IMG/VR virus record: IMGVR_UViG_3300033143_002040
Span: 99,712 to 126,561 of that record
Reading direction: 5' to 3' (one strand)
DNA length: 26,850 nucleotides
Source of the DNA: a virus
Positions 273 to 15,589 of the stretch are shown here, one piece after another (the first letter of the stretch is position 1; every line of letters starts with the position of its first letter). Below the pieces are notes generated by a model that saw only the letters and a program-made list of their open reading frames with translations, did no database searches and was not told the DNA's origin. Made by a program: the position numbers and the translations under genes.

Positions 273-602
273 TTACCTACCTAATTGCTGTATGAACTTT
301 TCAAGTGGCATTACTGTGAATCGTGCCTTCAGTGGCATTGTGTAATGCCCTATGCTAGAGAAATTGTACTGCCACTTCAGTTCTCTAGCTATTTCTGTTA
401 TCTTATCTACTGCTGGTTGTAACTCATCTAGTTGTCTGACTTCAATTTCAAACTTAAGTCCACCATCATGTAGAGTCATTAGTTCATTATTAACTCCTAT
501 GTCATAGCTATCTTCAGGAAGAGCATCATATATAGCTTGGATAAACTCTTTCTGTTCATCTGTGTATGGCATGAAGCTCTCTGTTATCTCGTTTGCTTTC
601 AT
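273..602 (-). CDS. Small late accessory protein with EIT leader and F-x-x-x-L tail
   Basis: A 109-aa acidic protein of unknown function. It starts MKANEIT, a variant of the M-K-L-x-E-I(T) leader of its neighbours, and ends PLEKFIQQLGR, which resembles the C-terminal tails of the plus-strand family (for example KELFKARLGG). It is therefore the one protein here with a version of the shared peptide at both ends. The middle has a predicted helix rich in Glu and Asp and a later beta-like segment. Its ATG overlaps the stop of the upstream gene (ATGA at 599-602), which supports the start. It is the last complete gene of the operon that begins with gp25, so it should be expressed late. No domain is recognised. 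Confidence 0.8.
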   Translation of the reverse strand: MKANEITESFMPYTDEQKEFIQAIYDALPEDSYDIGVNNELMTLHDGGLKFEIEVRQLDELQPAVDKITEIARELKWQYNFSSIGHYTMPLKARFTVMPLEKFIQQLGR

Positions 603-946
603 CCTATCACTACTTCAGCGACTAGGTAATCGTCGTTACTTGATTGCCAACCCATGTATAATACATAATTCCTATTCTCACTAAACTTACTCTCTACTGC
701 GTCCTTTACTTCTGCTATGTTTGTTACTACTTTACTTGTCTTCAAGTCATATGTAACTATGCTCTCTGATTCAGTATACATAGAAAGACTTACTACTCTT
801 GCTTTAGGATTATAACTTGAGCGTACTTTCCATTCAAGCGGCTTTAGTAGTCTGCGTAGTTCTTTTATCTTCTGCTTAACTTTCTGCTTCCCAGGATCTT
901 TAAGTCCTTGTATAAACTCCTTCTTTGTTATCTCTGTTAACTTCAT
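599..946 (-). CDS. Small late accessory protein with MKLTEIT leader
   Basis: A 115-aa protein of unknown function. The N-terminus reads MKLTEITKKEFIQGLKDPG, the fullest copy of the shared leader: M-K-L-x-E-I-T followed by K-K-x-F-I-x-x-L-K-D-P. A very basic helix (KQKVKQKIKELRRLLK, about residues 19-35) follows, then an alternating beta-like part to the C-terminus. Gene 1418-1732 begins almost the same way and then diverges, so the leader is shared while the bodies differ. Start and stop both overlap neighbours by ATGA, which indicates translational coupling. The basic helix could contact nucleic acid, but that is a guess. Confidence 0.82.
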   Translation of the reverse strand: MKLTEITKKEFIQGLKDPGKQKVKQKIKELRRLLKPLEWKVRSSYNPKARVVSLSMYTESESIVTYDLKTSKVVTNIAEVKDAVESKFSENRNYVLYMGWQSSNDDYLVAEVVIG

Positions 947-1281
947 ACATGTCCTGGATCAATCATATTAACTCTGTCAACCCAGGGCTTTGCTCTTGCT
1001 TTCTGTTCTTCATCGTCGCTACGCCAGTGTCGCTTCAAGCGATCTGTGAATAGAAACTCGCGAGGTAACTCACGAAATATCCATGTTCCCCATGTAGCGT
1101 TGAAGCCTACGTCAGCTATAATAGCAATTGCAGACCACAAGTACATAGGTATTATAGTGAACCAACTTAGTTCATCTTTATGTGCTTTCAATCTTTGAAC
1201 TGTAGGATATGCTAAGAAGATGCCGCCTAAGATCAACCACGAAGTTAATGCTACTGATAAGATAGTTAGTATAATATTCAT
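943..1281 (-). CDS. Two-segment membrane protein, function unknown
   Basis: A 112-aa integral membrane protein. Two hydrophobic segments are visible, about residues 2-25 and 40-60, followed by the stretch FRELPREFLFTDRLKRH. As I recall, small phage membrane proteins with an F-x-E-x-P-R-E-x-L-F-T-x-R-L-x-R-H ending occur in many phages of Proteobacteria, but I know of no assigned function. The C-terminal 30 residues are charged and probably cytoplasmic. It lacks the MKLxEI leader of the surrounding genes. ATGA overlaps on both sides support start and stop. A holin role cannot be excluded but nothing specific supports it. Confidence 0.82.
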   Translation of the reverse strand: MNIILTILSVALTSWLILGGIFLAYPTVQRLKAHKDELSWFTIIPMYLWSAIAIIADVGFNATWGTWIFRELPREFLFTDRLKRHWRSDDEEQKARAKPWVDRVNMIDPGHV

Positions 1282-1421
1282 GTGCTACACTCGCCTCTGC
1301 ATTTTATCTTGCCACAACGACAACTCTTATCTGGCTTAGGTGCGCAATCTCCTTTGCAACTTATCTTGCCGCATCGACAGCTAGATGATTTACGTTCTTG
1401 TTTAATCTCTGATAGTTTCAT
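1278..1421 (-). CDS. 47-aa Cys-rich protein with two CxC-GKI-C repeats
   Basis: A very short gene, held in place by ATGA overlaps at both ends (1418-1421 and 1278-1281). The protein starts MKLSEIKQERK, again the M-K-L-x-E-I leader. It then carries two near-identical 13-residue repeats, SCRCGKISCKGDC and SCRCGKIKCRGEC, separated by APKPDK. Each repeat has four cysteines, so the mature part has eight, enough to bind two zinc ions or form a small metal cluster. Unlike its acidic neighbours the protein is basic. I do not recognise the family. The leader plus internal duplication suggests a small metal-binding module that duplicated after joining the leader. Confidence 0.78.
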   Translation of the reverse strand: MKLSEIKQERKSSSCRCGKISCKGDCAPKPDKSCRCGKIKCRGECST

Positions 1422-1732
1422 GTCTTCCTCACTACGTAAACAGCGAATTCTTCTTCTACGTCACCCCTAAATGCTTTGAAAGCCCAATGCTGTGAACTCT
1501 TAATTATTCCCTTTATGTTCCCAATCAGATTACCTTCTTGGGTCTCAATATCCATTCTTGGAGGAATGCCTATAATAGTCGCAAGCTCTTTGTCTGCGTT
1601 GTATGCGTTAAAGCTGTATCCTCGACTTGCTGATTGAATCAATCTATCAACAATATCCTGTAATTCTGTTGCTGCTGGGTCTTTAAGATTGCCAACAAAC
1701 TTATCCTTATCTGTTATTTCATTAACTCTCAT
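1418..1732 (-). CDS. Small late accessory protein with MRVNEIT leader
   Basis: A 104-aa protein of unknown function. It begins MRVNEITDKDKFVGNLKDP, which matches the leader of gene 599-946 almost position by position (E-I-T, then K-x-F-(I/V)-x-x-L-K-D-P), after which the sequences diverge. An amphipathic helix follows (about residues 20-35), then a mixed alpha/beta body with no recognisable motif. The stop overlaps the start of the Cys-rich gene and the start overlaps the stop of the gene upstream, so translation is coupled. It belongs to the gp25/gp6 late operon. No catalytic residues can be proposed. Confidence 0.8.
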   Translation of the reverse strand: MRVNEITDKDKFVGNLKDPAATELQDIVDRLIQSASRGYSFNAYNADKELATIIGIPPRMDIETQEGNLIGNIKGIIKSSQHWAFKAFRGDVEEEFAVYVVRKT

Positions 1733-2079
1733 AGTAAACTCTTATTCCACGGGCCTAAGTTGCCTTCTCTTGCTGCTTTAATCATAGCTTCAACTACTGT
1801 ATATTCTATGATATTCTCTGCGTTCATTACATCTCTGTACTTTACTGCATCCATCACTAGTGGATCTTCTTTGCTACGTGAACTGTCTATTGCTTTGCCT
1901 TCTAGTTCTAGCCAGCCATGTGCAAACGTTCTACCCTCTATGTTTGTAACAGTTGCGTGTACTAATGTATATTTGTCTTGTACTTCTTCTGATTCACCTT
2001 TGATAAGATCCATCATCAATCGCCACGAATTGTCGAAACAATGTAGTAGTTCTCTTTGTTGTATCTCATTTAATTTCAT
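1729..2079 (-). CDS. Small late protein with MKLNEI leader and HGW-LE core
   Basis: The ATG at 2077-2079 overlaps the upstream stop as TAATG and gives a 116-aa product starting MKLNEIQQRELLHCF. A slightly longer reading from 2088 is possible but breaks the overlap pattern. The core contains HATVTNIEGRTFAHGWLELE followed by a conserved-looking I-D-S, and later EYTVVEAMIKA and a GPW near the end. This layout (His, then H-G/A-W-x-E, then I-D, then Y-T-x-x-E-A and G-P-W) recalls a family of small phage and bacterial proteins with a HAWVE motif. I cannot name a tested function, and a papain- or transglutaminase-like fold is only a guess. Confidence 0.78.
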   Translation of the reverse strand: MKLNEIQQRELLHCFDNSWRLMMDLIKGESEEVQDKYTLVHATVTNIEGRTFAHGWLELEGKAIDSSRSKEDPLVMDAVKYRDVMNAENIIEYTVVEAMIKAAREGNLGPWNKSLL

Positions 2080-2399
2080 TAAACCCAAAAATGATGTATG
2101 TCATTCTCTAGATCATGTATCCAAAGATTGCCAGACATCGTATCCCTTTCTAATTTTATATTCTCTCTATTTGACATTCGCAATAACTTACTGCTAATCT
2201 CGTTAGGCCAAATTAACTTCTTAAATACTTCTAATTCTACTGGCTCTGCATTCTCAACTGCGTATGCAAACTCTGTAGCATCATCATATCCCATTTCAGC
2301 TAATGCCTCATCTGAACGACAGTCACCTGCATAAACAAGCCCAGCCTTCGATGACCATTCAGTTTTTGCCCAGTTGTTGTCTATCTCATCTAACTTCAT
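2079..2399 (-). CDS. Small late accessory protein with MKLDEI leader
   Basis: The start is set at the ATG at 2397-2399 because AGAGGAGGAAACAG stands directly before it, an excellent Shine-Dalgarno sequence. It then begins MKLDEID, matching the family leader. An in-frame upstream ATG at 2441 would add 14 residues inside the previous gene and hide the leader. The 106-aa product is acidic. It has a Y-A-V-E-N-A-E-P-V-E-L-E-V-F segment and ends HHFWV. It overlaps the previous gene by 14 bases and the next by one. No family is recognised. Confidence 0.78.
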   Translation of the reverse strand: MKLDEIDNNWAKTEWSSKAGLVYAGDCRSDEALAEMGYDDATEFAYAVENAEPVELEVFKKLIWPNEISSKLLRMSNRENIKLERDTMSGNLWIHDLENDIHHFWV

Positions 2400-2832
2400 C
2401 TGTTTCCTCCTCTGTGTAACCAAATCCGCCACAATCATCACAAACCGTTATTGTTTCTTTATCGGGCCACCTTGTAAACGACGGATAATACTCTAGTTGT
2501 CCCTTGCCGACACATGCTTCACAAAAAATACTGTTATCATTGCGTTCTTTGACTAACTGCCTGCTTATATTATTCACGCATTCTTCATTATCCCACAGCA
2601 TATTAATCTTCAATTCATAGTGGGTTCTAATGTCTGATGGCGGTATAATGCTATCACATATGTATTCCCAATAGTTCGTAGGAGTTGTCTCAAAATATAC
2701 TTCAAAGATATAATCTCCACCGAAGTGTAAAGCATCTTCAAGATGTCTAGCAAAGAATGTTCCAACAGTAAAACCGTCTTTCATAATCTTTGCTGCATTC
2801 TCAGCGTTAGTTCCGTGAAACATTATTTTCAT
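2386..2832 (-). CDS. Probable ADP-ribosyltransferase-like domain fused to half a DnaJ-type zinc finger
   Basis: A 148-aa protein. Residues 1-95 have the look of an ART/PARP-fold domain: FHGTNAENAAKIMKDGF at the start (the H-G-T motif that binds NAD in the H-Y-E group), then FFARHLEDALHFGGDYIFEV (aromatic and Ala-rich second motif), then I-I-P-P-S-D-I. A catalytic Glu cannot be placed with certainty. The C-terminus has CEACVGKG and CDDCGGFG, two CxxCxGxG modules as in DnaJ, which has four. T4-like phages use ADP-ribosyltransferases (Alt, ModA, ModB) to modify host RNA polymerase and other proteins. This one is much smaller than those and its target is unknown. It lacks the MKLxEI leader. The start overlaps the upstream stop as TAATG. 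Confidence 0.55.
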   Translation of the reverse strand: MKIMFHGTNAENAAKIMKDGFTVGTFFARHLEDALHFGGDYIFEVYFETTPTNYWEYICDSIIPPSDIRTHYELKINMLWDNEECVNNISRQLVKERNDNSIFCEACVGKGQLEYYPSFTRWPDKETITVCDDCGGFGYTEEETDEVR

Positions 2833-3083
2833 TACGGTCCTTCTGCGTATACAGTTGTTTGCGTAGCATCCATGACTCGCCAGTACTTAACAGCCGTCCA
2901 GCGACTAAACAAGTCTTTTGCTGCTTCAACTGCAATTGGAACTGTGTCATACTTAATTGCGTTAGTGTTCCAGCTATCTTCTGGATCGCCGTGTGTATTG
3001 ACATATACTTTGTATATTCCTGTCTGCTGCCGAACGCCTGTTGCATTACCCCTGCGCGCTTCTTCTATTTCTTCTAGTCTCAT
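2832..3083 (-). CDS. Small late accessory protein with MRLEEI leader
   Basis: An 83-aa protein of unknown function. After MRLEEIEEARRG it has a strand (YKVYVN), then IAVEAAKDLFSRW (a helix with an E-A pair), then KYWRVMDA. This strand, helix with E-A, strand order resembles the core of the plus-strand MKYxI family (for example 9331-9552), so it may be a relative with the leader at the other end. Its ATG would overlap the original stop of gp6 (TGA at 3080-3082), but the 86-bp duplication has moved the present gp6 stop to 3184. It is now about 100 bases from gp6, so translational coupling is probably lost or weakened. Confidence 0.75.
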   Translation of the reverse strand: MRLEEIEEARRGNATGVRQQTGIYKVYVNTHGDPEDSWNTNAIKYDTVPIAVEAAKDLFSRWTAVKYWRVMDATQTTVYAEGP

Positions 3084-3183: not shown

Positions 3184-3294
3184 TTACTTGGAAGAGGTTA
3201 CCGAATACCTTACGATTACTACATCGCCTACTGTTGCTGTACTTAAGAATAACTCATCAGGTTCTCCTTTTACTTGGAAGAGGTTACCGAATAC
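3123..3294. repeat. Exact 86-bp tandem direct repeat, two copies
   Basis: Bases 3123-3208 and 3209-3294 are identical over all 86 positions that I compared. The flanks differ immediately, apart from one base after copy 2. Eighty-six is not a multiple of three, so the duplication changes the frame of the overlapping gp6 3' end. It may be a real slipped or recombined duplication, or an assembly error. Confidence 0.92.
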
Positions 3295-6200
3295 CGAATC
3301 TGATTTCTGTGGTACAATGACCACTGAAGCTACTGTTTTAGCTAGCGTTTGATGAATGAACGTCGATAATTCCGTATAAAAAAAGCTCTCTCCAAAATCC
3401 CAATTTGAGATGTCAAAGTAATCATCAATAGCTGAGATAACTTGTGACTTCACTTCGTTGTCTGTTACTGTTGAGCCGTCTACCTTAACTACTTTAAACT
3501 TGGCTTGCAATTCATCCTCTGAACCAGTGCCAAACAATAGCTTGAACTTACCTGGTTTATAGATGATTTGATCTGACATCATCTTGAATTCTTCTAACTC
3601 AGCGAACTGAATACGTAGATCCTCTGTTGTAGGCTCAGTTGGAAATGGCGCAGTTATATCGTTCGATGCCTTCCATGTAATCACTTCACCATAGTATGTA
3701 TTTGTCAATAGCATTACGTCAATGACGTTAGATATGCTAGGATCAATACGATTGCTACGAGGTGCGTAATGCTTCCATTTGAAGTACAACGGATTCTCTT
3801 GTGTTGGATCTGTTATTACATCTAACTCAAAGCTTCTGCCTAACTTAGCATCGTGATTTGTTGTTACTACAATCTCTCCTGTTAGCGTTGTTAGTTGATT
3901 AAACACATAGAATGTCTCTACTGATGCGTTAGCGTCATAGAAAACCATTCCGTTAAATGCTAGGATAGACTCTGCTGCATCAGGAGAGCCTGTGCCTGCT
4001 GGATTAACGATAGCATCGTGTATAGTTCCTGTGCCTAATGCTGACGGATCAAGTGTCGTAACCATAAGATCAACAATCGTTGTTGCTCTATTAGGATCTG
4101 GACTTGAAATCGCTGACATTACGTAGTCTAAGCCAACCTTGCTTACTACTAATGGGCCAGTGTTAAGTTGATACTCACCATGTTCCCAAAGTCTAAAGTA
4201 CTCGTAGTTATCAAAGTCAGTAAATCTCTCAAAGTATACTGTATCAGGTGAGCCGCCGTTGTCTAGAAATATATCAATCTCTAGTGGCTCATCAGGCACG
4301 CCGTCGTTGTTAGTATCTGGTGAACGTACTTCTACTTTACGAGGATCATTGTAACCGTCTTCGTACATCACTAAACTGATAAGCTCTAGGTTCACTGGAT
4401 CTACTAGTGCTGCTCCTGAACCAATGCTCGGAGGATTAGTTAATGAGTTTGTAGGCAGAATCTCAACACTATCTTGTAGTGCTAGTCCTGTTGATACATC
4501 AATCGTTGTTCTACTTGGGTCTAAGAAGAACTGTGCATCTTCCTTAGACTCGAATATATATCGCTTACCACGAGCCGTGAATGTCCATACTGAATCTACT
4601 GCATCGAATGAACAGAATACTAACCAACTTGCAACCTCTGTTATATCAGCTACAAACGTTTCATCTCCGCTAGGAGCAGAAGCGAAACCATTTGTTGTAT
4701 CAATTACATACCATGCGCCGGCCTTAAGATCACCTGAAACTGTTGCTGCTACGTCATATCCTATGCCAAAGTCTGCTGCATTTGTAATTGCAGTCTGAAT
4801 CAATGTAGACTCTGCTGCGCTAAATGCTGTTCTGAATGTTGGGATAAGATCAAGTGCGTATCTATCATCATTAACTAAATCAGTTAGCTCAATTGGGCCT
4901 GTAGCTGTTAGGTTAGTTGGAGTTGGAGCGACTCCGTCTAGAATGAGTGAGTTAACTACTCGCCATTCTAGAATTGTTGATGTTCCTACTGTTGAAGCAT
5001 TACCGAAGCGTATTTGTGCGCCTGTTCGAAAGAACGTATCTGCTGTAGAGATAGGCACAATGCTATCAACTGATGGGTTCAAATAACCTGTGTCATTGCT
5101 TGTGTTGATAGGTTGTGGTTGCCAGTACACATTACTCGGAGCGGCACCAAATTCTGTATTATCTGTGATATTAAACGCATTTGGATTCAGTGTCAAATAA
5201 CTAGTACGGTAATCACTGTAGTAGAAGTTTGCTAGTTCTTGATTATCAATAAAAGCATCTAGGTTTACGTTTGTAATAGTTGATGCGCCTAATGTTGAAT
5301 CTACTGTAGTACGATCTCCTTCATCATCCTCATACAATGCGCCATCATCACCAAATACTAAGGTATTCTGTGCTGTTCCCGTAGGATCATTGATGTCGAT
5401 GTATCGACTATGTCCTGCGTGTGTGCGATTCAAACTCTTGATCTTGTTAATCTCGTTGCCTCGTGTCAATGGGAATACGTTATAGTCTTCACCGTTGACC
5501 ATTCTGTTCTGAGTGTAGAACACTTGAGGAGCACGCTCTTTGATCTGCCTACTTGTTTCAGTTGGTGCGCCGTTAGCTACTGTAGATTCTAAGCTAAAGA
5601 GTAGTCGTGCGTTGTACTCTTGACTGTCTGCGCCAAAGTACGGAATGTTTATCTCAAAGTTCTGTACATCATCTGCTCGTAGTGTTAGATTCTTGTTAGC
5701 AGAGACACGCATCCATGTACGAAAGATGCCTACAGGAGTATTACCGAAGTTGCCATCAGCAAACTTCAGAGTAACCTGATCGTTCAATCGTGGTAGGACA
5801 TTAAAGATTGTACGTAGAGCATTGTTCAAACTGTTGAAAATAACATTTGTGCCTACTAAGCTAGGGACTTTTGTCCATTGCTCTAATACGTTACCGTCTT
5901 GATCTATTTCTTGTACATATACATCATCTTCGTTAATGTTGTTGATGTTAATGTCTAGTGTTCTATTACGTACAGGCAAATCGTAGCGATTATCCTGTCG
6001 TTCTAGTGTGCCCTGCTTGAACATCAAGAAGAATCCTGTGTTCTCTGAGCCTAAGCCCTCGCCATCATTGCGATAGATAACGTGAAAGTTATCTGCTGGG
6101 TTAGGTGGACGTTCGAAGAAGAACTCACCATCAGTGAAGTCAGGATTGACTACATCAAACGGTACTTGATCTCCTCGAATAGATATGTTAAGATTATACG

Positions 6201-6792
6201 CTACTTCAACGTTAGGTACGTTGTTGAGTCGATAGATGTCAGTAGGAATGTTGCCAATCGTGCCTGTCTTGAACGGACGGCCAAATGGGTTGTTACTATT
6301 GAACACAGCGTTAAGGATAGTTGTGAACTGCTCAAAACTATCAGGGTTATTTACATCATTCCAAAAGATAGTTGTATTGTTTAAGTCACGATCCAAACTA
6401 TCTGTGATTGGCTCATTGGTCTCTACTCCTGACAGCTTAAACAAACCTGATAGAGCTATGTTACGCTTAGGGGTATATGAGAGCATCCTAGCAAGTCGTA
6501 TAATACTATCTCTGCGTTCTGCTGTATCTAAAAAATTCTCTCGCGTGTTCAAATCTGCTCTAAAGTTGAGCGATGTACCGAGATATGACAGCAATTCTAT
6601 TGTTGCAATGAATTCACTTGACTGGATGTAATCGTTGAACGATTCAGGATAGTGGGCACGAACGTAGTCAATAAGACTTGCTCGTAGAGTATCGAAATCA
6701 TATGCGCGGAAGTCAACATCTGAAAACGACTTGTAAATTGTGGTCCAGTCTTCTGCTGTAAACAGATTACTTTGTCTTACTGATTGTGACAT
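3184..6792 (-). CDS. gp6: Baseplate wedge protein gp6, enlarged, C-terminus altered by duplication
   Basis: A structural subunit of the contractile-tail baseplate; in T4, gp6 forms the ring that joins the wedges. The N-terminus (FRAYDFDTLRASLIDYVR, YPESFNDYIQSSEFIAT, LLSYLGTSLNFRADLNTREN) is typical of T4-like gp6. At 1202 aa it is far longer than T4 gp6 (660 aa), with a large middle region that includes DTNNDGVPDEP, a calcium-loop-like Asp/Asn motif. The last seven residues (YSVTSSK) come from a frame shift caused by the 86-bp tandem repeat; the expected ending is 13 residues, NLTDTNLRIGAST. A GAGGAAGAAGGA ribosome-binding sequence precedes the ATG. It lies in the late operon started at 8012-8019. 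Confidence 0.92.
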   Translation of the reverse strand: MSQSVRQSNLFTAEDWTTIYKSFSDVDFRAYDFDTLRASLIDYVRAHYPESFNDYIQSSEFIATIELLSYLGTSLNFRADLNTRENFLDTAERRDSIIRLARMLSYTPKRNIALSGLFKLSGVETNEPITDSLDRDLNNTTIFWNDVNNPDSFEQFTTILNAVFNSNNPFGRPFKTGTIGNIPTDIYRLNNVPNVEVAYNLNISIRGDQVPFDVVNPDFTDGEFFFERPPNPADNFHVIYRNDGEGLGSENTGFFLMFKQGTLERQDNRYDLPVRNRTLDININNINEDDVYVQEIDQDGNVLEQWTKVPSLVGTNVIFNSLNNALRTIFNVLPRLNDQVTLKFADGNFGNTPVGIFRTWMRVSANKNLTLRADDVQNFEINIPYFGADSQEYNARLLFSLESTVANGAPTETSRQIKERAPQVFYTQNRMVNGEDYNVFPLTRGNEINKIKSLNRTHAGHSRYIDINDPTGTAQNTLVFGDDGALYEDDEGDRTTVDSTLGASTITNVNLDAFIDNQELANFYYSDYRTSYLTLNPNAFNITDNTEFGAAPSNVYWQPQPINTSNDTGYLNPSVDSIVPISTADTFFRTGAQIRFGNASTVGTSTILEWRVVNSLILDGVAPTPTNLTATGPIELTDLVNDDRYALDLIPTFRTAFSAAESTLIQTAITNAADFGIGYDVAATVSGDLKAGAWYVIDTTNGFASAPSGDETFVADITEVASWLVFCSFDAVDSVWTFTARGKRYIFESKEDAQFFLDPSRTTIDVSTGLALQDSVEILPTNSLTNPPSIGSGAALVDPVNLELISLVMYEDGYNDPRKVEVRSPDTNNDGVPDEPLEIDIFLDNGGSPDTVYFERFTDFDNYEYFRLWEHGEYQLNTGPLVVSKVGLDYVMSAISSPDPNRATTIVDLMVTTLDPSALGTGTIHDAIVNPAGTGSPDAAESILAFNGMVFYDANASVETFYVFNQLTTLTGEIVVTTNHDAKLGRSFELDVITDPTQENPLYFKWKHYAPRSNRIDPSISNVIDVMLLTNTYYGEVITWKASNDITAPFPTEPTTEDLRIQFAELEEFKMMSDQIIYKPGKFKLLFGTGSEDELQAKFKVVKVDGSTVTDNEVKSQVISAIDDYFDISNWDFGESFFYTELSTFIHQTLAKTVASVVIVPQKSDSVFGNLFQVKGEPDELFLSTATVGDVVIVRYSVTSSK

Positions 6793-6921
6793 TTATCCTT
6801 CTTCCTCTAATTGTTGTAGACGGCTAGTATATGTATACTCGCCTATCACATCACCTATAGCTTTAGCTTCTGCTAGTAGTTCTTTGACTGTTGCTATCTG
6901 TGCTTCTGTATATTCGCTCAT
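6793..6921 (-). CDS. 42-aa helical protein upstream of gp6
   Basis: A very short gene between 6918-7394 and gp6. Its ATG overlaps the upstream stop (ATGA at 6918-6921) and its TAA is immediately followed by the gp6 ATG. The product begins MSEYTEAQIATVKELLAEAK, is mostly helical and acidic, and ends LQQLEEEG. The last codons also form the strong ribosome-binding site of gp6, so the gene may partly serve to couple gp6 translation. No family is recognised. Confidence 0.72.
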   Translation of the reverse strand: MSEYTEAQIATVKELLAEAKAIGDVIGEYTYTSRLQQLEEEG

Positions 6922-7394
6922 CTTTTCTTCTGCCAATCGCTGAATGCAGCATACTCATCATCTTGTCCGTGCCCAGCATCCTCATGCCCAGCAAAGTATC
7001 CTGCTATGAATGTTTTTTCAGTTTGTTCTTGTTGCATTTCAATCATAGTCTCGTATGAATCACACATACTGCTCAATCGTTGAAATGCTTGTTCTAATTC
7101 TTGTTGTGTAGGCGGAATACTAAGCTGCGGTCGTTTCATTCTAAAGTCACGAGGTTTAGCTGATCCTGCTTCACTTAGTTCTTTGTGTCTCTCTACATGT
7201 ACTGCGAATTCATCTTTGTCCATCCATTGATATGGTGAATGGTTAAGAGTGATTCTCTCCCCTTTAGGAGTAGTCATGTAGTGCCATTTCTTACTGTTAT
7301 TGCCGTCTGATTCAACGTCTTCTTCCTCGTTGTATCCGTATCCGTCTACTACGTACTGAAATCGTTGTTCATTTAGTATGTCTTGAAATCTCAT
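6918..7394 (-). CDS. Late accessory protein, 158 aa, unknown
   Basis: It begins MRFQDILNEQRFQYVVDG, a possible distant version of the MKLxEI leader (M-R-F-x-D-I). An acidic stretch (EEEDVESD) follows, then a H-Y-M-T-T-P-K-G-E-R-I segment with aromatic residues, a proline-containing linker, and a C-terminal helix of Gln and Glu residues. The end is rich in His, Gly and Asp (FAGHEDAGHGQDDEY), which could bind a metal. It sits between gp25 and gp6 in the late operon, so a virion or assembly role is plausible. No known domain is seen. TAATG and ATGA overlaps support both ends. Confidence 0.8.
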   Translation of the reverse strand: MRFQDILNEQRFQYVVDGYGYNEEEDVESDGNNSKKWHYMTTPKGERITLNHSPYQWMDKDEFAVHVERHKELSEAGSAKPRDFRMKRPQLSIPPTQQELEQAFQRLSSMCDSYETMIEMQQEQTEKTFIAGYFAGHEDAGHGQDDEYAAFSDWQKKR

Positions 7395-7603
7395 TATCGC
7401 TCCTGCGCCATCAGTTCAACCCAATGATCCTTGCCTGCACGATAAGCTTCACGCGCCCAACCTTTTGCATACACTTCAGGACGATATACTCTATTTTTTG
7501 CATCACGAAACCCCTCTTGATTGAATAATAATTCGTGATCTCGTTGGGCTTGATCTGCTATGCTTTCATTTACATCTTGCTTAGTTATTTCATCTAGTTT
7601 CAT
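7394..7603 (-). CDS. Small late protein with MKLDEIT leader, directly after gp25
   Basis: A 69-aa protein beginning MKLDEITKQDVNESIADQ, the family leader. The rest contains DHELLFNQEGFRDAKNR and KGWAREAYRAGKDHW and looks helical and basic towards the C-terminus. Its start overlaps the gp25 stop as TAATG, so it should be made at the same time as gp25. Function unknown. Its place right behind a structural gene, with the leader that recurs nearly 5 kb away, makes it a good member of the putative leader family. Confidence 0.8.
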   Translation of the reverse strand: MKLDEITKQDVNESIADQAQRDHELLFNQEGFRDAKNRVYRPEVYAKGWAREAYRAGKDHWVELMAQER

Positions 7604-8118: not shown

Positions 8119-8150
8119 AGTTACAATTGAGGCAAGAATGGATAGCTACA

Positions 8151-8345
8151 ATGGCCGACAAGAGAGCATTTTGTGAACATGCTGATTGTGCAGGTGAGTT
8201 CTACGTGCGCGATATGGAAGAAATGCAGGATGGCGATGGCGGCCATATCTATGTCTGCCAGCATCACTTAGAAACAATGGAAGATCAGTCTGGTTTCTGC
8301 TCAATGAATTGCCAGCTTGGTTACGGCTGCGATGATAGTTGCTAG
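8151..8345 (+). CDS. 64-aa Cys/His-rich putative zinc-binding protein
   Basis: The first gene after the sigma70 promoter. The protein has seven cysteines (residues 8, 13, 36, 50, 54, 60, 64) and histidines at 10, 32, 38 and 39, in patterns such as CEHADC, CQHH and CSMNC. It probably folds around zinc; the family is not recognised. The middle is acidic. The ATG at 8151 is taken as the start. A TTG at 8127 would leave almost no leader after the predicted transcription start, and a better ribosome-binding site is not evident for either. As an early, acidic small protein it could target a host factor, but nothing shows which. Confidence 0.68.
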   Translation: MADKRAFCEHADCAGEFYVRDMEEMQDGDGGHIYVCQHHLETMEDQSGFCSMNCQLGYGCDDSC

Positions 8346-8346
8346 T

Positions 8347-8568
8347 ATGAAATATGTAATTCATTTAGCATACGAGATTAAGAAAACGAATTACTATTCA
8401 GGGCCGCTAATCGTTGGTGGGCAAACACCAAAACTGTCTAAAGCGGCAACGTATAACTCACATACAGAAGCGAAGGTTGTTGCAGATGAAATAAGTGAGG
8501 CGTGGTTTGCTAGTGTTACTGAAGTTTCTGACAGAGAACTATTTGAAGCGAGGCTCAAAGGAATATGA
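8347..8568 (+). CDS. MKYxI family paralogue 1 with C-terminal LFEARLKG tail
   Basis: A 73-aa protein starting MKYVIHLAYEIKK one base after the upstream stop. The layout is shared with at least five other genes of this operon: an N-terminal beta strand (M-K-Y-x-I), a middle segment ATYNSHTEAKVVADEI (aromatic, then Ser, then E-A in a helix), and the ending VSDRELFEARLKGI. The tail matches (I/V)(T/S)xxxLFxxRLKG in paralogues at 9052, 9331, 9770, 13189 and 15347. An upstream in-frame ATG at 8317 is less likely because it overlaps the previous gene by 29 bases. Function unknown. Confidence 0.78.
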   Translation: MKYVIHLAYEIKKTNYYSGPLIVGGQTPKLSKAATYNSHTEAKVVADEISEAWFASVTEVSDRELFEARLKGI

Positions 8569-9049: not shown

Positions 9050-9051
9050 TC

Positions 9052-9330
9052 GTGAACGGGCTTATACACTTAATTATAGCTGACAGGGACGATAATCTTG
9101 GCGTCGTCTATTCATATTATGCCTGCGAGCCTCAGCGAATACGTGACGGTAGTGGAGAATACGCAGGCGGATTCGAAAGTGATATAACTAACGCAATCAC
9201 TTTCGATAATATCTTGTTAGCGCACATAAATCGTAAGAGGCTACAGGATATGTATTCTGATATACCTGCTAAGATGAAAGTCATAACTATGACAACCAAA
9301 GAATTATTTAAAGCGAGACTCGGAGGATAA
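9052..9330 (+). CDS. MKYxI family paralogue 2 (GTG start) with LFKARLGG tail
   Basis: Read from GTG at 9052, the 92-aa product begins MNGLIHLIIADRDDN, which aligns with MKYVIHLAYEIKK of gene 8347. A TTG at 9031 is an alternative but would overlap the previous gene. The middle has ITFDNILLAHINRKRLQDMY, comparable to the family helix, and the end is TTKELFKARLGG, the shared tail. It overlaps nothing and is followed directly by the next paralogue after a GGAGGATAA that serves as its ribosome-binding site. Function unknown. Confidence 0.7.
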   Translation: MNGLIHLIIADRDDNLGVVYSYYACEPQRIRDGSGEYAGGFESDITNAITFDNILLAHINRKRLQDMYSDIPAKMKVITMTTKELFKARLGG

Positions 9331-9552
9331 ATGAAGTATTTGATAGTACAGAACAATCCTTTGAGAACTTATATACAGGATCGGAAAAGAGATACTGTAC
9401 ATATTAATGAAGCACTAATATTTGACTCAAAGAAAGAATGCCAGACTTTCATAAAGGACAATCCGCTTCGAACTAAACACATGGGATTGCTATTCTACGA
9501 TATTATAGAAATATCTAAACAAGATTTATTTATAGAGAGATTAAAAGGATGA
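9331..9552 (+). CDS. MKYxI family paralogue 3 with LFIERLKG tail
   Basis: A 73-aa protein that shows the family layout clearly: MKYLIVQNNPLRTY (strand), EALIFDSKKECQTFIKDN (aromatic-Ser then E-C helix), and EISKQDLFIERLKG at the very C-terminus. The start follows the previous stop directly and has GGAGG in front. It lies back to back with paralogue 2, which suggests tandem duplication followed by divergence. The tail ends at the last codon before the TGA that overlaps the next ATG. Function unknown. Confidence 0.82.
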   Translation: MKYLIVQNNPLRTYIQDRKRDTVHINEALIFDSKKECQTFIKDNPLRTKHMGLLFYDIIEISKQDLFIERLKG

Positions 9553-9773
9553 CTATTTACAAGAAAGAAACAACAGAAGAAAAAGTCATGCGAATAGTGA
9601 CACGAATAATGTCTGTAGTAATGGGGCTTATGATTTTATGGGTTGTAGCAGCGACACCAGCTACCTTTACAGAACTAACAATTGATGATGCTACAGCATT
9701 ACGAACAGCAGCGATGCTAGGTTTCATGGGTTGGATGTTTGTTTTTGTATCTGCATTTAGGCCTCGCGAATGA
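9549..9773 (+). CDS. Two-segment small membrane protein
   Basis: A 74-aa protein with hydrophobic segments at about residues 17-38 (containing MSVVMGLMILWVVAA) and 53-70 (MLGFMGWMFVFVSAF), separated by a short loop with acidic residues, and a charged N-terminus (MTIYKKETTEEK). Size and topology are compatible with a holin or a superinfection-exclusion protein, but no motif decides. ATGA overlaps at both ends place it within the operon. Confidence 0.75.
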   Translation: MTIYKKETTEEKVMRIVTRIMSVVMGLMILWVVAATPATFTELTIDDATALRTAAMLGFMGWMFVFVSAFRPRE

Positions 9774-10039
9774 CACCGTCTGACACAATCTATGTATTAT
9801 CATTTACGTATAGTGATGGTTATGGTGATGGTTCGATGTACCTGAGTGGTCGTTACGAACCAAGTAATGGCGAACTTAATGCTATTAGTGATACCATTGC
9901 AACTGATTTAGTAGATGCTAAAGTGTTTTACAGCAAACAGGAAGCGTGGAATTATCGTGAAGATGCTTCGAGTAACGGTTGGCAGATAACTCCAATCTCA
10001 GCAAAGAAATTATTTACCAAAAAGTTGAAAAGCAAATGA
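9770..10039 (+). CDS. MKYxI family paralogue 4 with LFTKKLKSK tail
   Basis: An 89-aa protein beginning MTPSDTIYVLSFTYSDGYGD. The strand, the segment AKVFYSKQEAWNYRED (aromatic-Ser then E-A helix) and the ending ITPISAKKLFTKKLKSK follow the family plan, with a slightly longer N-terminus and more basic tail. The middle is rich in Gly, Asp and Ser. ATGA overlaps link it to a membrane protein upstream and a lipoprotein downstream. Function unknown. Confidence 0.78.
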   Translation: MTPSDTIYVLSFTYSDGYGDGSMYLSGRYEPSNGELNAISDTIATDLVDAKVFYSKQEAWNYREDASSNGWQITPISAKKLFTKKLKSK

Positions 10040-10299
10040 ATATGATTATGAAAATGATACCACTGTTTATTCTGTTAACTGGATGTACGTATAATCCAGG
10101 TGAAGCAACAGCAGACTTCGAACTGGCTGTATGCACAGATACGAGAGACGGCAAGCAATTCACTATCATTGGTTCGACGTTAAGGAACTACAGAGCAGGA
10201 GTCGGTGCGCCAAGTACTTACGAAATAGACGATACTGAAGGACGTACTCGAACTTTATCGTCAGATATGAATGCATGGTTAAAGTGTGTGCCGCAATGA
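10036..10299 (+). CDS. Small lipoprotein
   Basis: Read from the ATG at 10036 (ATGA overlap), the N-terminus MNMIMKMIPLFILLTGC is a lipoprotein signal peptide with the lipobox L-L-T-G-C, so Cys17 would be lipidated after cleavage. The 71-residue mature part is small, has two more cysteines (LAVCTDT and LKCVPQ) and probably sits at the inner or outer membrane facing the periplasm. Phage lipoproteins of this size often block superinfection or form outer-membrane spanins. This one lacks the proline-rich spanin look and has no obvious inner-membrane partner next to it. The host would have to be Gram-negative for a spanin role. Confidence 0.72.
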   Translation: MNMIMKMIPLFILLTGCTYNPGEATADFELAVCTDTRDGKQFTIIGSTLRNYRAGVGAPSTYEIDDTEGRTRTLSSDMNAWLKCVPQ

Positions 10300-10634
10300 T
10301 TGAATGGGACGAAAGAACAATCAAACAGTTGCGCGAAGGCGATACTAAGAATCGCTTAGTGAAGGACAAATTCGTTAGCAATTTGAGAGGCGGCAGTCAG
10401 TATGAATGGAAAGGTACGTTTCGTAGAAGTTCGCCAAAAGACGTACACGCATGGCGCTCTGTTGAGTTACGTACATCAGTTCACGGTACGGCTGTGCTGA
10501 TTGTATTGAAAGGTGGCGAAATGGCTCGATTTTCAATGAACGCAAAACTACATGCAGACCCTAGCTATTATAGAGATATAGCAGAAGTAATCGAAGAAGG
10601 TCAACTAATAGCAGCAGAACTGAGGGTGAAATGA
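10296..10634 (+). CDS. Small protein with internal K-D-K-F-x-x-x-L-R-G motif
   Basis: A 112-aa protein from the ATG at 10296, which overlaps the lipoprotein stop. It starts MIEWDERTIKQLREGD, then carries LVKDKFVSNLRGG (about residues 21-33), very close to DKDKFVGNLKDP of the late gene at 1418-1732 and to the tails of the MKYxI family. The rest is beta-rich with several basic residues (KGTFRRSSPKD) and ends in a helix. This is a third position, internal, for the shared peptide. No known domain is seen. Confidence 0.75.
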   Translation: MIEWDERTIKQLREGDTKNRLVKDKFVSNLRGGSQYEWKGTFRRSSPKDVHAWRSVELRTSVHGTAVLIVLKGGEMARFSMNAKLHADPSYYRDIAEVIEEGQLIAAELRVK

Positions 10635-11621: not shown

Positions 11622-11623
11622 GG

Positions 11624-12052
11624 ATGAGTTCTTTTATACAAACACTCAATGAAATGTATCATTGGCTTCCTGGGGATGCGACAGCACCTATTAGTTTTTG
11701 TGTACTCGGATTTATATGGGGCGTGTCTCGCTACTTTCGTTCATTCAAATATATGTATTACTATTATATTGAAAATGGTATCGTTATTTGGTCCATGGAC
11801 GAAAAAAGATCAGAAATGGATCGGATTGCTAAGAAATACAATCTTCCTAATTCTGATTACTTTGAACCTAGCGGATATGTTACAGGTTTAATAATTATTC
11901 TTTTGTGTACTATATTAGGAATAATTGTAGGAACACTGTGGCCTTTGTCACTCATAATCGGAGTGTTAACAATACCAAATTTTATTCTTCGCCGTATTGC
12001 AAGAGAGAAACGAAACAAAGCAGTATTTGAACAAACATTGAAGGGAAAATAA
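11624..12052 (+). CDS. Three-segment membrane protein with VFEQTLKG tail
   Basis: A 142-aa protein with hydrophobic segments at about residues 20-37, 84-103 and 104-122 and a central soluble loop (EKRSEMDRIAKKYNLPNSDY). The basic C-terminus ends KAVFEQTLKGK, close to the LFxxRLKG tail of the MKYxI family although the body is unrelated. If the tail is a true module, it has been attached to a membrane protein here. Function unknown. The stop overlaps the next start as TAATG. Confidence 0.76.
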   Translation: MSSFIQTLNEMYHWLPGDATAPISFCVLGFIWGVSRYFRSFKYMYYYYIENGIVIWSMDEKRSEMDRIAKKYNLPNSDYFEPSGYVTGLIIILLCTILGIIVGTLWPLSLIIGVLTIPNFILRRIAREKRNKAVFEQTLKGK

Positions 12053-12545: not shown

Positions 12546-12546
12546 G

Positions 12547-12648: not shown

Positions 12649-12926
12649 AAAAGATAATCTTAGAACAAATACCCGTGAAGTGGACAACACTCACAATGTA
12701 TACTTATGACGACGGAGAAAATGTAGATGTCGTTTGTGATGTATCAGATGGCAAAAAGACTGAGTGGATGGATACGAAGTATGATTCATTCTACAAGAAA
12801 GCTATCTGGCCGCATCAAGAAAGACTTCAACACACAAAAGAGAATGCCTTGAAAGCATATGGCTATCTCCCCGCACAAATAATCATCATAGAATGTGATT
12901 TCTCAGAGTTTAGGAATCTAAGATAA
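12645..12926 (+). CDS. Small hypothetical protein
   Basis: A 93-aa soluble protein from the ATG at 12645 (ATGA overlap); an in-frame ATG at 12630 is less likely. It begins MKKIILEQIPVKWTTLTMYT, has a D-D-G-E-N-V-D-V-V-C strand region, a central helix with KKAIWPHQERLQHTKENALK, and ends FSEFRNLR. The alternating strands and one helix suggest a compact alpha/beta fold. No family is recognised. It marks the end of the membrane-gene run. Confidence 0.72.
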   Translation: MKKIILEQIPVKWTTLTMYTYDDGENVDVVCDVSDGKKTEWMDTKYDSFYKKAIWPHQERLQHTKENALKAYGYLPAQIIIIECDFSEFRNLR

Positions 12927-13192
12927 TGAGCAGAGTACATAAAGACAAACACGGCATATATGTCAAGGCAGGCGGATATATTATTCGCCCAGATATTAGC
13001 GAACGCTTCTACAATCAAGAAGATTGTCTCAAAGGCAAAACGCAATATGTTGCTGGCGATGAAGTCAAGGCTAATCACATAGCTAGTTCAGGTTTAGGAT
13101 TAGTTGGTGATGAATATTGGTTCACACACGGCAGCTACTATGATTACGAAGGCGGCCAAATAAGCAGCGAGGAATGTTGGGAAGTAAAATGA
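12926..13192 (+). CDS. Small hypothetical protein rich in Gly, Tyr and His
   Basis: An 88-aa protein beginning MSRVHKDKHGIYVKAGGYII after a TAATG overlap. It is beta-rich, with an E-D-C-L-K-G segment, and ends in an acidic stretch (SSEECWEVK). Two cysteines and several His and Tyr residues are present but form no clear metal site. An R-P-D-I-S-E-R-F-Y-N-Q-E-D segment is predicted helical. Function unknown. Confidence 0.72.
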   Translation: MSRVHKDKHGIYVKAGGYIIRPDISERFYNQEDCLKGKTQYVAGDEVKANHIASSGLGLVGDEYWFTHGSYYDYEGGQISSEECWEVK

Positions 13193-13458
13193 AATACATT
13201 ACTTACCAAGTACGCTATGCAATCGTGCGCGGAGACATGCAATCTACGCGCACGTACCTCATGCAAATGAATCCATACAGCATAGGCATGTCATATGTTA
13301 GGTCTGATGCATTGATTTTTGACAACGAGGAAGAAATTAAAACTACCATTGTTGAAGCTAAGAATAATGATTATGATGAAAATGATTACGAAGCTGATAA
13401 TTGGATTATCGAACCCATAACAGAAAAAGAAGTGTTCGTGCAAAGATTAACGCGGTGA
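13189..13458 (+). CDS. MKYxI family paralogue 5 with ITEKEVFVQRLTR tail
   Basis: An 89-aa protein that starts MKYITYQVRYAIVRGD by ATGA overlap. The middle DALIFDNEEEIKTTIVEAK is closely similar to EALIFDSKKECQTFIKDN of paralogue 3, then an acidic stretch with D-Y-D-E-N-D-Y-E, then EPITEKEVFVQRLTR at the C-terminus. The tail is strikingly like the leader EITKKEFIQGLK of the late gene 599-946. An upstream ATG at 13174 overlaps the previous gene and is rejected. Function unknown. Confidence 0.8.
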   Translation: MKYITYQVRYAIVRGDMQSTRTYLMQMNPYSIGMSYVRSDALIFDNEEEIKTTIVEAKNNDYDENDYEADNWIIEPITEKEVFVQRLTR

Positions 13459-13586
13459 GTGTAATATTTGGAATTTTTATTGTTGTAATTTTGCTCACGA
13501 TTGCAAATTTACTCAATGAAATATTAAGTGAGCTACGATTAGCTAAGAGAGACAGGGAAGATGCAAGTTCACAGAGGAAGGGTTGA
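13455..13586 (+). CDS. 43-aa single-pass membrane protein (GTG start)
   Basis: GTG at 13455 overlaps the previous stop as GTGA. The product MSVIFGIFIVVILLTIANLL has one membrane segment (residues 2-22), followed by a charged helix (EILSELRLAKRDRED) and a basic end. A longer reading from ATG at 13401 would lie inside the previous gene and is rejected. The anchor plus coiled-coil form is seen in many tiny phage proteins. No function can be assigned. Confidence 0.62.
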   Translation: MSVIFGIFIVVILLTIANLLNEILSELRLAKRDREDASSQRKG

Positions 13587-13589
13587 AAG

Positions 13590-13874
13590 GTGAGTGAAGA
13601 AGTTATCTCAGTTGTGAAGTGGGTTAACAGAACAAAGGTAGCTGGTATGTATTGTTATTACGGTAAAACTGAGTTTGGCAGCGGAGATAATGAACCAGGA
13701 AGATACGCTACATTCTTAGAGGCAATCGCACTTGAGATTGAATCAAAGTATCGTCAGATTGAAGAATTAGATTGTCAAGGAGAGTGGTGCGGGAAGTCTC
13801 CTAATAAGCATGACGATGGACTGTGTGGTGTTTGTAAGATGCAGAAAGAATTATTTGTAGACAAGTTAGGTTGA
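13590..13874 (+). CDS. Cys-rich protein with LFVDKLG tail (GTG start)
   Basis: A 94-aa protein starting at GTG with GAGGAAGGG upstream. The N-terminal half is beta-rich with a helix (FLEAIALEIESKYRQIEELD). The second half has four cysteines in the order C-Q-G-E-W-C and CGVCK, probably one zinc site, and it ends MQKELFVDKLG, the shared C-terminal tail. It therefore joins a putative zinc module to the tail of the MKYxI family. Position between two membrane genes is unremarkable. Function unknown. Confidence 0.72.
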   Translation: MSEEVISVVKWVNRTKVAGMYCYYGKTEFGSGDNEPGRYATFLEAIALEIESKYRQIEELDCQGEWCGKSPNKHDDGLCGVCKMQKELFVDKLG

Positions 13875-13878
13875 TATT

Positions 13879-14160
13879 ATGAATTTCTTTGAATGGTACG
13901 GAACAGGAATTGTAATCATACTAGCATTGTTTTGTTGGCAAGCATATACATTAAACGACACAATAATGAAAGCAGTAGATGAAGTGTATGATATATTCAT
14001 ACGCAGAGCAGATGGATTATCAACTAGTCTTCTACTTGTACTCGCATTGTTAGGTCCATTATTGATTCCAGCAATAGCATACTTTAAATTTCGTGAATGG
14101 CAAGATAGTTTAGCAGTAGATGATGATGACAATATAGATTATCCTTGGAGGGATGAATGA
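13879..14160 (+). CDS. Two-segment membrane protein with acidic C-terminus
   Basis: A 93-aa protein with hydrophobic segments at about residues 8-26 (GTGIVIILALFCWQAY) and 49-69 (SLLLVLALLGPLLIPAIAYF), and an acidic soluble end (LAVDDDDNIDYPWRDE). The loop between the segments is charged (KAVDEVYDIFIRRAD). It overlaps the next gene by ATGA. The topology could suit a holin but the motif-free sequence gives no proof. Confidence 0.75.
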   Translation: MNFFEWYGTGIVIILALFCWQAYTLNDTIMKAVDEVYDIFIRRADGLSTSLLLVLALLGPLLIPAIAYFKFREWQDSLAVDDDDNIDYPWRDE

Positions 14161-14465
14161 ACATTAGCATGTACAGAAAGGTCTTAGGATACATGGGTGG
14201 TGACAAGAAACAACCTATCTATCAGCATATGCCAGGAGCGTTAGTGACTCAAGCATTCATTCATTGCAGTCAATGTATGGCAGCTATCAGCGGTCAAAAT
14301 GGTCCTCGTAGGGATGCATGGTGCATCAAGTGTACAGATGAAAAGGTTGAGACTGATGCGGAGGCAAAGAAGGTAGCTAGAAAGAAAGCTACTGCTGATG
14401 CGCTAGCTAAAAAGAAAGCAGAATTAGAAGCAGCAGCAAAGAAAAAGAAAGCGGAAGAAGAATGA
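14157..14465 (+). CDS. Zinc-finger protein with Lys/Ala-rich helical tail
   Basis: A 102-aa protein. CSQC (residues 37-40) and CIKC (56-59) make a four-cysteine zinc site. From about residue 65 on the protein is a continuous Ala/Lys/Glu helix (KKVARKKATADALAKKKAEL and onward) that ends AEEE. The helix is strongly basic and could bind nucleic acid or form a coiled coil. The coding DNA there is purine-rich (repeated aaagaaagc-like words), consistent with growth by slippage. ATGA overlaps on both sides. Function unknown. Confidence 0.75.
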   Translation: MNISMYRKVLGYMGGDKKQPIYQHMPGALVTQAFIHCSQCMAAISGQNGPRRDAWCIKCTDEKVETDAEAKKVARKKATADALAKKKAELEAAAKKKKAEEE

Positions 14466-14794
14466 ACGAATGGCAACAAGTAGGCAGATTAGTTAGCAGT
14501 TACGAGAAAGGTGAGCTTCGTTTCGTTGTATTGAAGTCTCGTGGTACAGGCAAAAGTATGATTGCACAAAATATGATACGATTCAGTGACTCATGGACAA
14601 AATGGAAAGATGAATGGTCGTGGAAGCCTCGCGTATCTAGCAGAAGTGGTAATATAATTTGGGGCAACATTATGGTACGAAAGAGCAAGTTTGTTCTTAG
14701 TAACTTTGGCCGAGAAGTGATTGAATATGCATCACCAAACGAAGCACTAAAACAGCAGAGAGAAGAATTTAAGGAGATATTAAGTCGTGGCTAA
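14462..14794 (+). CDS. Basic, Trp-rich small protein
   Basis: A 110-aa protein starting MNEWQQVGRLVSSYEKGE by ATGA overlap. It has a beta-like FVVLKSRGTGKSMIAQNM (about residues 21-38), a run of tryptophans (SWTKWKDEWSWKPR), then N-I-I-W-G-N-I-M-V-R-K-S and a C-terminal helix. GTGKS looks like part of a P-loop, but the upstream Gly is missing and the protein is too short for a complete NTPase. The basic, aromatic composition suggests nucleic-acid binding. No family is recognised. Confidence 0.74.
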   Translation: MNEWQQVGRLVSSYEKGELRFVVLKSRGTGKSMIAQNMIRFSDSWTKWKDEWSWKPRVSSRSGNIIWGNIMVRKSKFVLSNFGREVIEYASPNEALKQQREEFKEILSRG

Positions 14795-15053
14795 AAGAAT
14801 TGACATCGGTGAGAAATCATTTAGATTACGCAGAGGCGTACTCGTAGAGATACCTAAGAAATGGATAGGTAAAACTCTTAGCGATCAAACGAAACGTAAG
14901 CGTCAAAGCAAACTAACACGCAAACAAAAGAATCAAGGGTTTGGTAGAGTTTGGAAAAATCCTAGCAAAGAAATAGGCTGGGGCACATGTATGTATCTGC
15001 GCCGCAGTCGTGGTGAAGATGTTTTTAATGAGGTTGATGAACATGAATACTAA
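14787..15053 (+). CDS. Very basic small protein (GTG start)
   Basis: An 88-aa protein beginning at GTG 14787 with AAGGAG about ten bases before it, overlapping the previous gene by eight bases. The centre is extremely rich in Lys and Arg (QTKRKRQSKLTRKQKNQ), followed by aromatic and Gly residues (GFGRVWKNPSKEIGWG). It is probably nucleic-acid or nucleoid binding, though ribosome binding is also possible. The end turns acidic (EDVFNEVDEHEY). No family is recognised. Confidence 0.7.
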   Translation: MAKRIDIGEKSFRLRRGVLVEIPKKWIGKTLSDQTKRKRQSKLTRKQKNQGFGRVWKNPSKEIGWGTCMYLRRSRGEDVFNEVDEHEY

Positions 15054-15345
15054 ACGAGTAGTTGAAGACATGGGAGATCGTCTAGAGCAAGAGTATCCTG
15101 ACATCAAACCTAAAAAGATTACTGGCGATTATCTTGCAACAGTGAGCGAGATAGAAACAGGTTCTTACGAAGTTGCAGCACATCTGAAATGGATGATTGA
15201 GCAAATGAAAGAAATGGATGAATACGCCCAAGATGATTTTGACGCATGGGGTAAACAGATGCGTTGGATAGGATTCATACAAGGTGCTCTTTGGGGTCTC
15301 GGTTATGTTTCAATTGATGAGTGGCGGGAGTTGAACATTGAGTGA
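15043..15345 (+). CDS. Acidic helical protein, 100 aa
   Basis: The start is set at ATG 15043 because GAGG lies nine bases upstream; the ATG at 15037 would be too close to it. The product starts MNTKRVVEDMGDRLEQEYPD. A long helix follows (AAHLKWMIEQMKEMDEYAQD), with a hydrophobic C-terminal part (WIGFIQGALWGLGYVSIDEW) that could be an amphipathic or membrane-touching segment. It overlaps the previous gene by 11 bases. No family is recognised. Confidence 0.72.
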   Translation: MNTKRVVEDMGDRLEQEYPDIKPKKITGDYLATVSEIETGSYEVAAHLKWMIEQMKEMDEYAQDDFDAWGKQMRWIGFIQGALWGLGYVSIDEWRELNIE

Positions 15346-15346
15346 C

Positions 15347-15589
15347 ATGAAATATATAGTTCAAGTATTTAACGGTAGAGGATACGAATATTTTTCTGGT
15401 AGTGCGAATCCTCACACTGGTTACTACGGTGGATTTGACACTTGTTTGCACCAAGCAACATTATTTGAATCTGAACATGTAGCACAGTCAACATTAGCAT
15501 ATCTCAGACAAGTAGGAATGGCAATGGGCATCGGTGAAGTGATTGCAAAGACAGATGCAGAAATATTCAAAATTAAGCTGAAAGGCTAA
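15347..15589 (+). CDS. MKYxI family paralogue 6 with IFKIKLKG tail
   Basis: An 80-aa protein from ATG 15347: MKYIVQVFNGRGYEYFSG (strand), ATLFESEHVAQSTLAYLRQ (aromatic-Ser then helix), and IAKTDAEIFKIKLKG at the C-terminus. It is the last gene of the long accessory operon. The stop is followed by about 70 non-coding bases with new promoter signals. TTG at 15338 is a weaker alternative start. Function unknown. Confidence 0.8.
   Translation: MKYIVQVFNGRGYEYFSGSANPHTGYYGGFDTCLHQATLFESEHVAQSTLAYLRQVGMAMGIGEVIAKTDAEIFKIKLKG

Follow-up and report, generated by a model that had tools for sequence, protein, structure and literature searches.

A stretch of 26,850 nucleotides (the window), corresponding to positions 99712-126561 of the 126,561-base virus record IMGVR_UViG_3300033143_002040, encodes numerous small proteins with mostly unrelated bodies that share one short peptide, here called the tag. 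Occurrence of the tag extends over the whole contig and is not a local feature of the window. It was counted in no fewer than 47 small proteins, roughly one in four of those encoded. Its 13-residue consensus is [VI]-[ST]-x-K-[ED]-x-F-K-x-K-L-K-G, in which positions are counted from the F (F0, preceded by K-3 and followed by L+4). The tag is conserved throughout one clade of phages, while the proteins carrying it diverge rapidly, and it is probably a short linear motif by which the carriers dock onto a single common partner.

Recurrence and placement of the tag

For the following, genes were called with our own caller on the whole contig holding the window (G0; contig coordinate = window coordinate + 99711), yielding 213 genes at 94% coding. 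A matrix trained on G0 alone reached scores of at least 14 in 46 of the 199 proteins shorter than 400 amino acids, as compared to 0.18 in shuffled proteins. This number of carriers is a lower bound, because the gene caller missed the tagged gene 9052-9330. The strict pattern [KREDQ]..F..[KR]L.G was observed 17 times, with 0.15 occurrences expected and a peak of 2 in 1000 shuffles. Thus, F-x-x-x-L endings are far commoner than in shuffled proteins, and the objection foreseen in a preliminary description of the window, that they might be equally frequent at random, does not hold. Unsupervised motif discovery ranked K..F...L first (36 proteins, 4.3 expected, log10 p -20.6). All peptides quoted in that description were located in the sequence at the genes to which they had been assigned, and ten of its 12 examples score well with the contig-wide matrix, whereas the end of gene 273-602 (6.6) and the start of gene 599-946 (4.9) fail. 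Two carriers in the window, genes 14462-14794 and 16253-16588, had been missed.

Placement of the tag is strongly biased towards the C-terminus, with 34 of the 46 tags lying within 22 residues of the end, while random placement would yield 9.7. The corresponding bias at the N-terminus is weak (13 non-redundant tags with F in the first 13 residues, 7.2 expected, P 0.026). Counted over 107 tags, F falls within the last 13 residues in 57 and within the first 13 in 16 cases; MSSEKRKFKYKLSG and MDEKAQFLLKLKG are N-terminal examples from the related contig G006. The proposed concentration near a terminus is thereby confirmed, and both ends are used as previously described, albeit unequally. The tag is also biased in strand, being present in 45 of 172 plus-strand proteins as compared to 1 of 27 minus-strand proteins (p 0.007).

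The bodies of the carriers mostly do not match, in agreement with the earlier proposal, although some of them are paralogous. Once the tag is masked, the 46 carriers fall into 42 groups, and clustering of the full-length sequences gives 40 components, including paralogue components of 5, 4, 3 and 2. By inspection, the carriers comprise zinc-ribbon-like proteins, coiled coils, small alpha-beta proteins and two membrane proteins, in both of which the tag sits past the last hydrophobic span. When all 46 proteins are aligned, the F and L of the tag alone are conserved at 90% or more, Met1 aside.

Conservation and spread of the tag

Four related contigs were available for comparison, namely G1 (IMGVR_UViG_3300033153_001906, 119 kb), G004, G005 and G006. 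Going by the record names, G1 and G006 share a sample and G004 and G005 share a second one, and they may therefore represent two phages. The matrix trained on G0 was applied unchanged and detected 26 tagged proteins in G1 (0.4 in shuffles), 15 in G004 (0.5), 7 in G005 (0.2) and 13 in G006 (0.1). K..F...L was likewise ranked first by unsupervised discovery in G1 (log10 p -15.5) and G006 (-8.2), and tied with F...LK in G004 and G005 taken together (-8.4). With the tag masked, 33 of the 61 tagged proteins of the relatives have no homologue in G0.

Of 32 orthologue pairs, 31 have the tag at the aligned position. Among pairs with at most 75% identity, the F of the tag is kept in 28 of 29 cases (97%) as compared to 48% for F in the bodies (p 2e-7), the L in 27 of 29 (93% versus 46%, p 6e-7) and the K/R in 23 of 26 (88% versus 50%, p 1e-4). 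Hence, the peptide is conserved relative to the bodies, as the preliminary description would require. The carriers themselves evolve fast, with a median identity to G1 of 37% versus 68% for other proteins. Codon usage within the tag is mixed: F is encoded by 23 TTC and 23 TTT codons, all six Leu codons are in use, Gly is specified by GGA (10), GGT (10) and GGC (6), and pairwise DNA identity among tags averages 47%. These mixed codons demonstrate that selection acts at the peptide level, and that the tag arose neither by copying of DNA nor by translation of a ribosome site. In sum, the tag is short, recurs in unrelated proteins and has a core conserved beyond its surroundings, which characterizes short linear motifs.

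The phage encodes a baseplate wedge protein (window 3184-6792) with 46% identity to that of the Pseudomonas jumbo phage PA5oct and its relatives, as well as a gp55-type late sigma factor, and is therefore T4-like. That the tag is a general feature of T4-like phages was ruled out, since no clear excess of matrix matches over shuffled proteins was observed in T4 (2 versus 1.8), PA5oct (1 versus 1.0), Asteriusvirus Ecwhy_1 (3 versus 1.4) and SCTP-2 (8 versus 2.2, about half lacking the F), nor in the large uncultured relatives G008 (0 versus 0.5), G009 (1 versus 0.8) and G010 (0 versus 1.5). For each of gp6, gp5 and the DNA polymerase, about 80 surrounding loci from other phages gave isolated matches only, clade members aside. 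Scans of viral and bacterial collections with DNA patterns revealed many tags per contig in this clade alone and isolated matches otherwise. In 3.9 Mb of outside sequence, a homologue was found for 1 of the 46 carriers as compared to 56 of 167 untagged proteins. The tag, recovered in G1, G004, G005 and G006, is a property of one phage clade.

Probable docking and its alternatives

As the relatives keep the tag while the rest of the protein changes, it is likely that the tag is a shared docking site. Its composition fits a short helix with its own caps: E/D/Q occupies position -2 in 34 of 46 tags (background 0.17), G occupies +6 in 28 of 43 (background 0.07), S/T/D/N is mildly enriched at -5 (21 of 46, background 0.25), and hydrophobic residues are found at -6 and -1. 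In this scenario, the ~13 residues would form a short amphipathic helix with hydrophobic residues at -6 and -1, in which S/T/D at -5 together with E/D at -2 would make up the N-cap box and G at +6 the C-cap. Helix geometry would place K-3, F0 and L+4 on one face, which could be presented to a groove of a single partner. Many unrelated proteins that evolve fast and are, for the most part, putatively early have the tag near one end, usually the C-terminus, and it would recruit all of them to the same place. An AlphaFold model is consistent with this idea. It concerns a carrier with an N-terminal tag and a beta-rich body (contig 66128), which belongs to a family of four. Blocks of residues 21-121 average 61-88 in the predicted local distance difference test (pLDDT), most of them above 75, whereas the tag residues 1-16 nearly all fall short of 50 and include a helix at 5-10; the tag is thus predicted to stand off the folded body.

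The preliminary description took the peptide for a portable module recognised by one common partner, and this view is accordingly the best-supported one, given ~40 unrelated carriers, independent relatives, selection on K, F and L and an unpacked tag in the model; for the partners it had named (capsid, polymerase, chaperone or protease) we obtained no evidence. As the late strand is almost devoid of the tag and has separate capsid-type leaders, a cytosolic hub, of either host or phage origin, seems a likelier partner than the capsid. More tentatively, the clade may have evolved proteome-wide addressing, in which newly acquired small early proteins receive the same helical tag and, by way of a single receptor, a large and changing accessory set reaches one complex or site. 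The majority of small early proteins in phages lack both homologues and a known function. Should dozens of them be marked by the tag for a single partner, this partner could be fished out in a single experiment, many unknown proteins would gain a common role, and it would become apparent how a phage adds and swaps accessory proteins while their destination stays the same.

Two further proteins provide leads, and no more than leads, to the partner. The product of contig 9783-10046, an N-tagged protein of 87 amino acids, is 85-92% identical between phages, in G0 versus G1 even more conserved than the DNA polymerase, and has no match in INPHARED. Weighed as a hub, it yielded a helical model (pLDDT 68) with weak, non-significant Foldseek matches, several of them to helix-turn-helix proteins. 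The small tagged protein of contig 41928-42275 matches the gp23 N-arm with its first 40 residues (Pfam Gp23, 2.8e-7), and its G1 orthologue starts similarly; a piece of the major capsid protein has thus been put to new use in this accessory protein.

Several points weigh against a docking tag. No partner was found in this analysis; the contig is probably part of a larger phage genome, and the partner gene may therefore lie off the contig. Searches of Pfam and PHROGs yielded no known family for the tag, and no solved structure explaining it was found. A profile search of the PDB mainly matched tandem polyubiquitin, in which FVKTLTG is repeated; no single stretch passed, and this match was judged an artefact because scores were summed over the repeats. 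Packing was examined in one carrier, whose model is backed by an alignment of 5 sequences. Orthologues were taken by BLAST of whole proteins, so that diverged pairs without the tag could escape the retention counts. Finally, the carriers are presumed to be mainly early from their strand and position. No account of a tag of this kind emerged from the literature, in a search whose coverage mostly excludes subscription journals.

Alternatively, the tag could be a packaging signal that loads proteins into the prohead for injection with the DNA, akin to the capsid targeting sequence (CTS) of T4, which is likewise short and portable and shared by unrelated internal proteins (PMC9026906), but mostly C-terminal. 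The protein opening with the gp23 N-arm and the late gene 1418-1732, which combines leader and tag, would suit this explanation. We nonetheless consider it unlikely, as the tag has no consistent [LI]xE cleavage site, is mainly C-terminal and hardly occurs on the late strand, and separate CTS-like leaders are present. Similarly improbable is a handle for quality control or turnover, to which a phage or host protein, namely an AAA+ unfoldase, a protease or a J-protein, would bind. Terminal placement would suit a degron or chaperone handle, and the contig encodes a DnaJ-type protein with J and C-terminal domains (contig 22374-23147) and an AAA ATPase (contig 13433-14518), both kept in G1; however, these two have relatives in many phages beyond the clade, and a direct link to the tag is absent.

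Two explanations dispense with docking altogether. The carriers could constitute one very old paralogous family with the motif as its last conserved helix. Some carriers are clear paralogues, as noted above, and other jumbo phages seem to contain expanded, fast-evolving families that retain a single conserved block (the FQ motif of Ecwhy_1, the F.L.W pattern of G010). Nevertheless, this possibility is largely refuted: the carriers do not share the homologous bodies of a single family, the motif occurs at the N-end, the C-end or in the middle of differing architectures, at 5 to 118 residues from the C-end, the masked bodies are mostly unmatched and the tag is unpacked in the model. An origin at the nucleic acid level, either by copying of DNA or by the Shine-Dalgarno sequence of the next gene being read as LKG at gene ends, could be suspected from the tight gene overlaps and the resemblance of AAA-GGA to a ribosome site. 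It is refuted by the mixed Gly, F and L codons and the low DNA identity of the tags; moreover, the peptide also occurs internally and at N-ends, and its most conserved residues are the upstream K, F and L. A docking motif thus remains our preferred explanation for the tag.

Late leaders, neighbouring genes and known systems

Table 1. Tags, tag-like peptides and leader-bearing late genes in the window (window coordinates)
Feature	Position	Strand	Remarks
tag VSDRELFEARLKG	8524..8562	+	C-terminal, gene 8332-8568; score 24.8; distant G006 homologue also tagged
tag MTTKELFKARLGG	9289..9327	+	C-terminal, gene 9052-9330; score 20.5
tag ISKQDLFIERLKG	9511..9549	+	C-terminal, gene 9331-9552; score 23.3
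tag ISAKKLFTKKLKS	9995..10033	+	C-terminal, gene 9770-10039; score 20.2; kept in L110 and L111 orthologues (49-56% identity)
tag RLVKDKFVSNLRG	10353..10391	+	near N-terminus, gene 10296-10634; score 17.3
tag KRNKAVFEQTLKG	12008..12046	+	past last hydrophobic span, gene 11624-12052; score 21.3; kept in L111 orthologue
tag ITEKEVFVQRLTR	13417..13455	+	C-terminal, gene 13189-13458; score 23.1
tag KMQKELFVDKLG	13836..13871	+	C-terminal, gene 13590-13874; score 19.4
tag KQQREEFKEILSR	14750..14788	+	C-terminal, gene 14462-14794; score 17.2; kept in L110 orthologue
tag KTDAEIFKIKLKG	15548..15586	+	C-terminal, gene 15347-15589; score 23.9
tag ALNKLLFKLKLKY	16502..16540	+	near C-terminus, gene 16253-16588; score 22.3; F...L kept in L110, L111 and L113 orthologues (34-51% identity)
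tag ITDKDKFVGNLKD	1679..1717	-	N-terminal, right behind MRVNE leader, gene 1418-1732; score 20.2
weak tag-like EITKKEFIQGLKD	896..934	-	N-terminal behind MKLT leader, gene 599-946; score 4.9 at F11
weak tag-like end VMPLEKFIQQLGR	276..314	-	gene 273-602, starts with leader MKANEITE; score 6.6, under threshold
late gene, CTS-like leader MKLDEITKQD, untagged	7394..7603	-	leader pattern; tag score -3.8
late gene, CTS-like leader MRFQDILNEQ, untagged	6918..7394	-	leader pattern
late gene, CTS-like leader MRLEEIEEAR, untagged	2832..3083	-	leader pattern; G006 orthologue keeps MKLKEIEEAR
late gene, leader MKLDEIDNNW, untagged	2079..2399	-	leader pattern; tag score 0

The preliminary description had lumped the N-terminal MKLxEI leaders of late proteins with the tag, which our data do not support. 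Eight minus-strand genes of G0 start with M[KR]xx[ED][IL], a beginning that is common to different late proteins and occurs 10 times in G0 (0.26 in shuffled proteins), 12 times in G1, 7 times in G008 and in 108 of 2589 proteins of other relatives. In other T4-like relatives it is often followed by [LI]xE (MRIDEIINES, MRAREFIIEN); inspection by eye finds this site in MRFQDILNE, MKANEITE and MRANEILNE, while it is not evident in MKLDEIDNN and MKLSEIKQE. The internal proteins of T4 carry a short N-terminal CTS that is cut off by gp21, and in IPIII ten residues suffice (PMC9026906). From their sequences, we read the MKLxEI/MRFQDILNE leaders as belonging to this known T4-CTS-like kind, also common in other T4-like phages and apart from the tag. 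Leader and full tag are joined in gene 1418-1732, the sole minus-strand gene with a full tag, and weakly so in gene 599-946, where the K..F...LK core is present and the flanks of the tag are absent.

Elsewhere in the window, the products of 21049-21774 and 23598-24275, near structural genes and the gp55 gene, resemble GIY-YIG/HNH homing endonucleases by sequence reading. Likewise, the product of contig 40409-41938 appears tRNA-guanine-transglycosylase/DpdA-like, without a Pfam or PHROG match, and that of contig 50148-51062 QueE-like, with a weak radical-SAM match; deazaguanine modification of the DNA is a possible function of these two genes.

Among known systems, the CTS of the T4 proteins IPI-IPIII comes close to the tag, being a short portable peptide shared in a T4-like phage while the attached proteins diverge (PMC9026906). 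However, the CTS is N-terminal, cleaved by gp21 and found on head proteins, whereas the tag is mostly C-terminal and has its F in the first 13 residues in just 16 of 107 cases. The position table of the 46 tags contains no conserved [LI]xE site of the gp21 type at its close, and the carriers do not belong to the late or head programme as read from strand (1 of 27 minus-strand versus 45 of 172 plus-strand proteins). Encapsulin cargo-loading peptides are also short, usually C-terminal and attached to unrelated cargo, and some of them end in SLKG or SLRG. In this case, we regard the similarity as resemblance only; no encapsulin was seen here, and the tag has a presumably helical K..F...L core. 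Clamp-binding boxes, such as the bacterial QLxLF and the C-terminal peptides binding T4 gp45, are short terminal peptides through which many proteins address one hub; in contrast, those replication proteins that can be recognised in this phage lack the tag, and K..F...L.G is spaced differently. In G010, a 518-kb viral contig, ~25 small proteins show a recurrent F.L.W / D...F...W pattern. Finally, ~60 small proteins of Ecwhy_1 (MH791411.1) carry [ST]EExxFQxS[LT][IV], which shares with the tag the spacing of S/T at -5, a hydrophobic residue at -1, F0 and L/T at +4. This motif is acidic rather than basic and is nearly always located 27-80 residues before the C-end, and therefore resembles a core shared by a single, rapidly evolving family and not a terminal tag.

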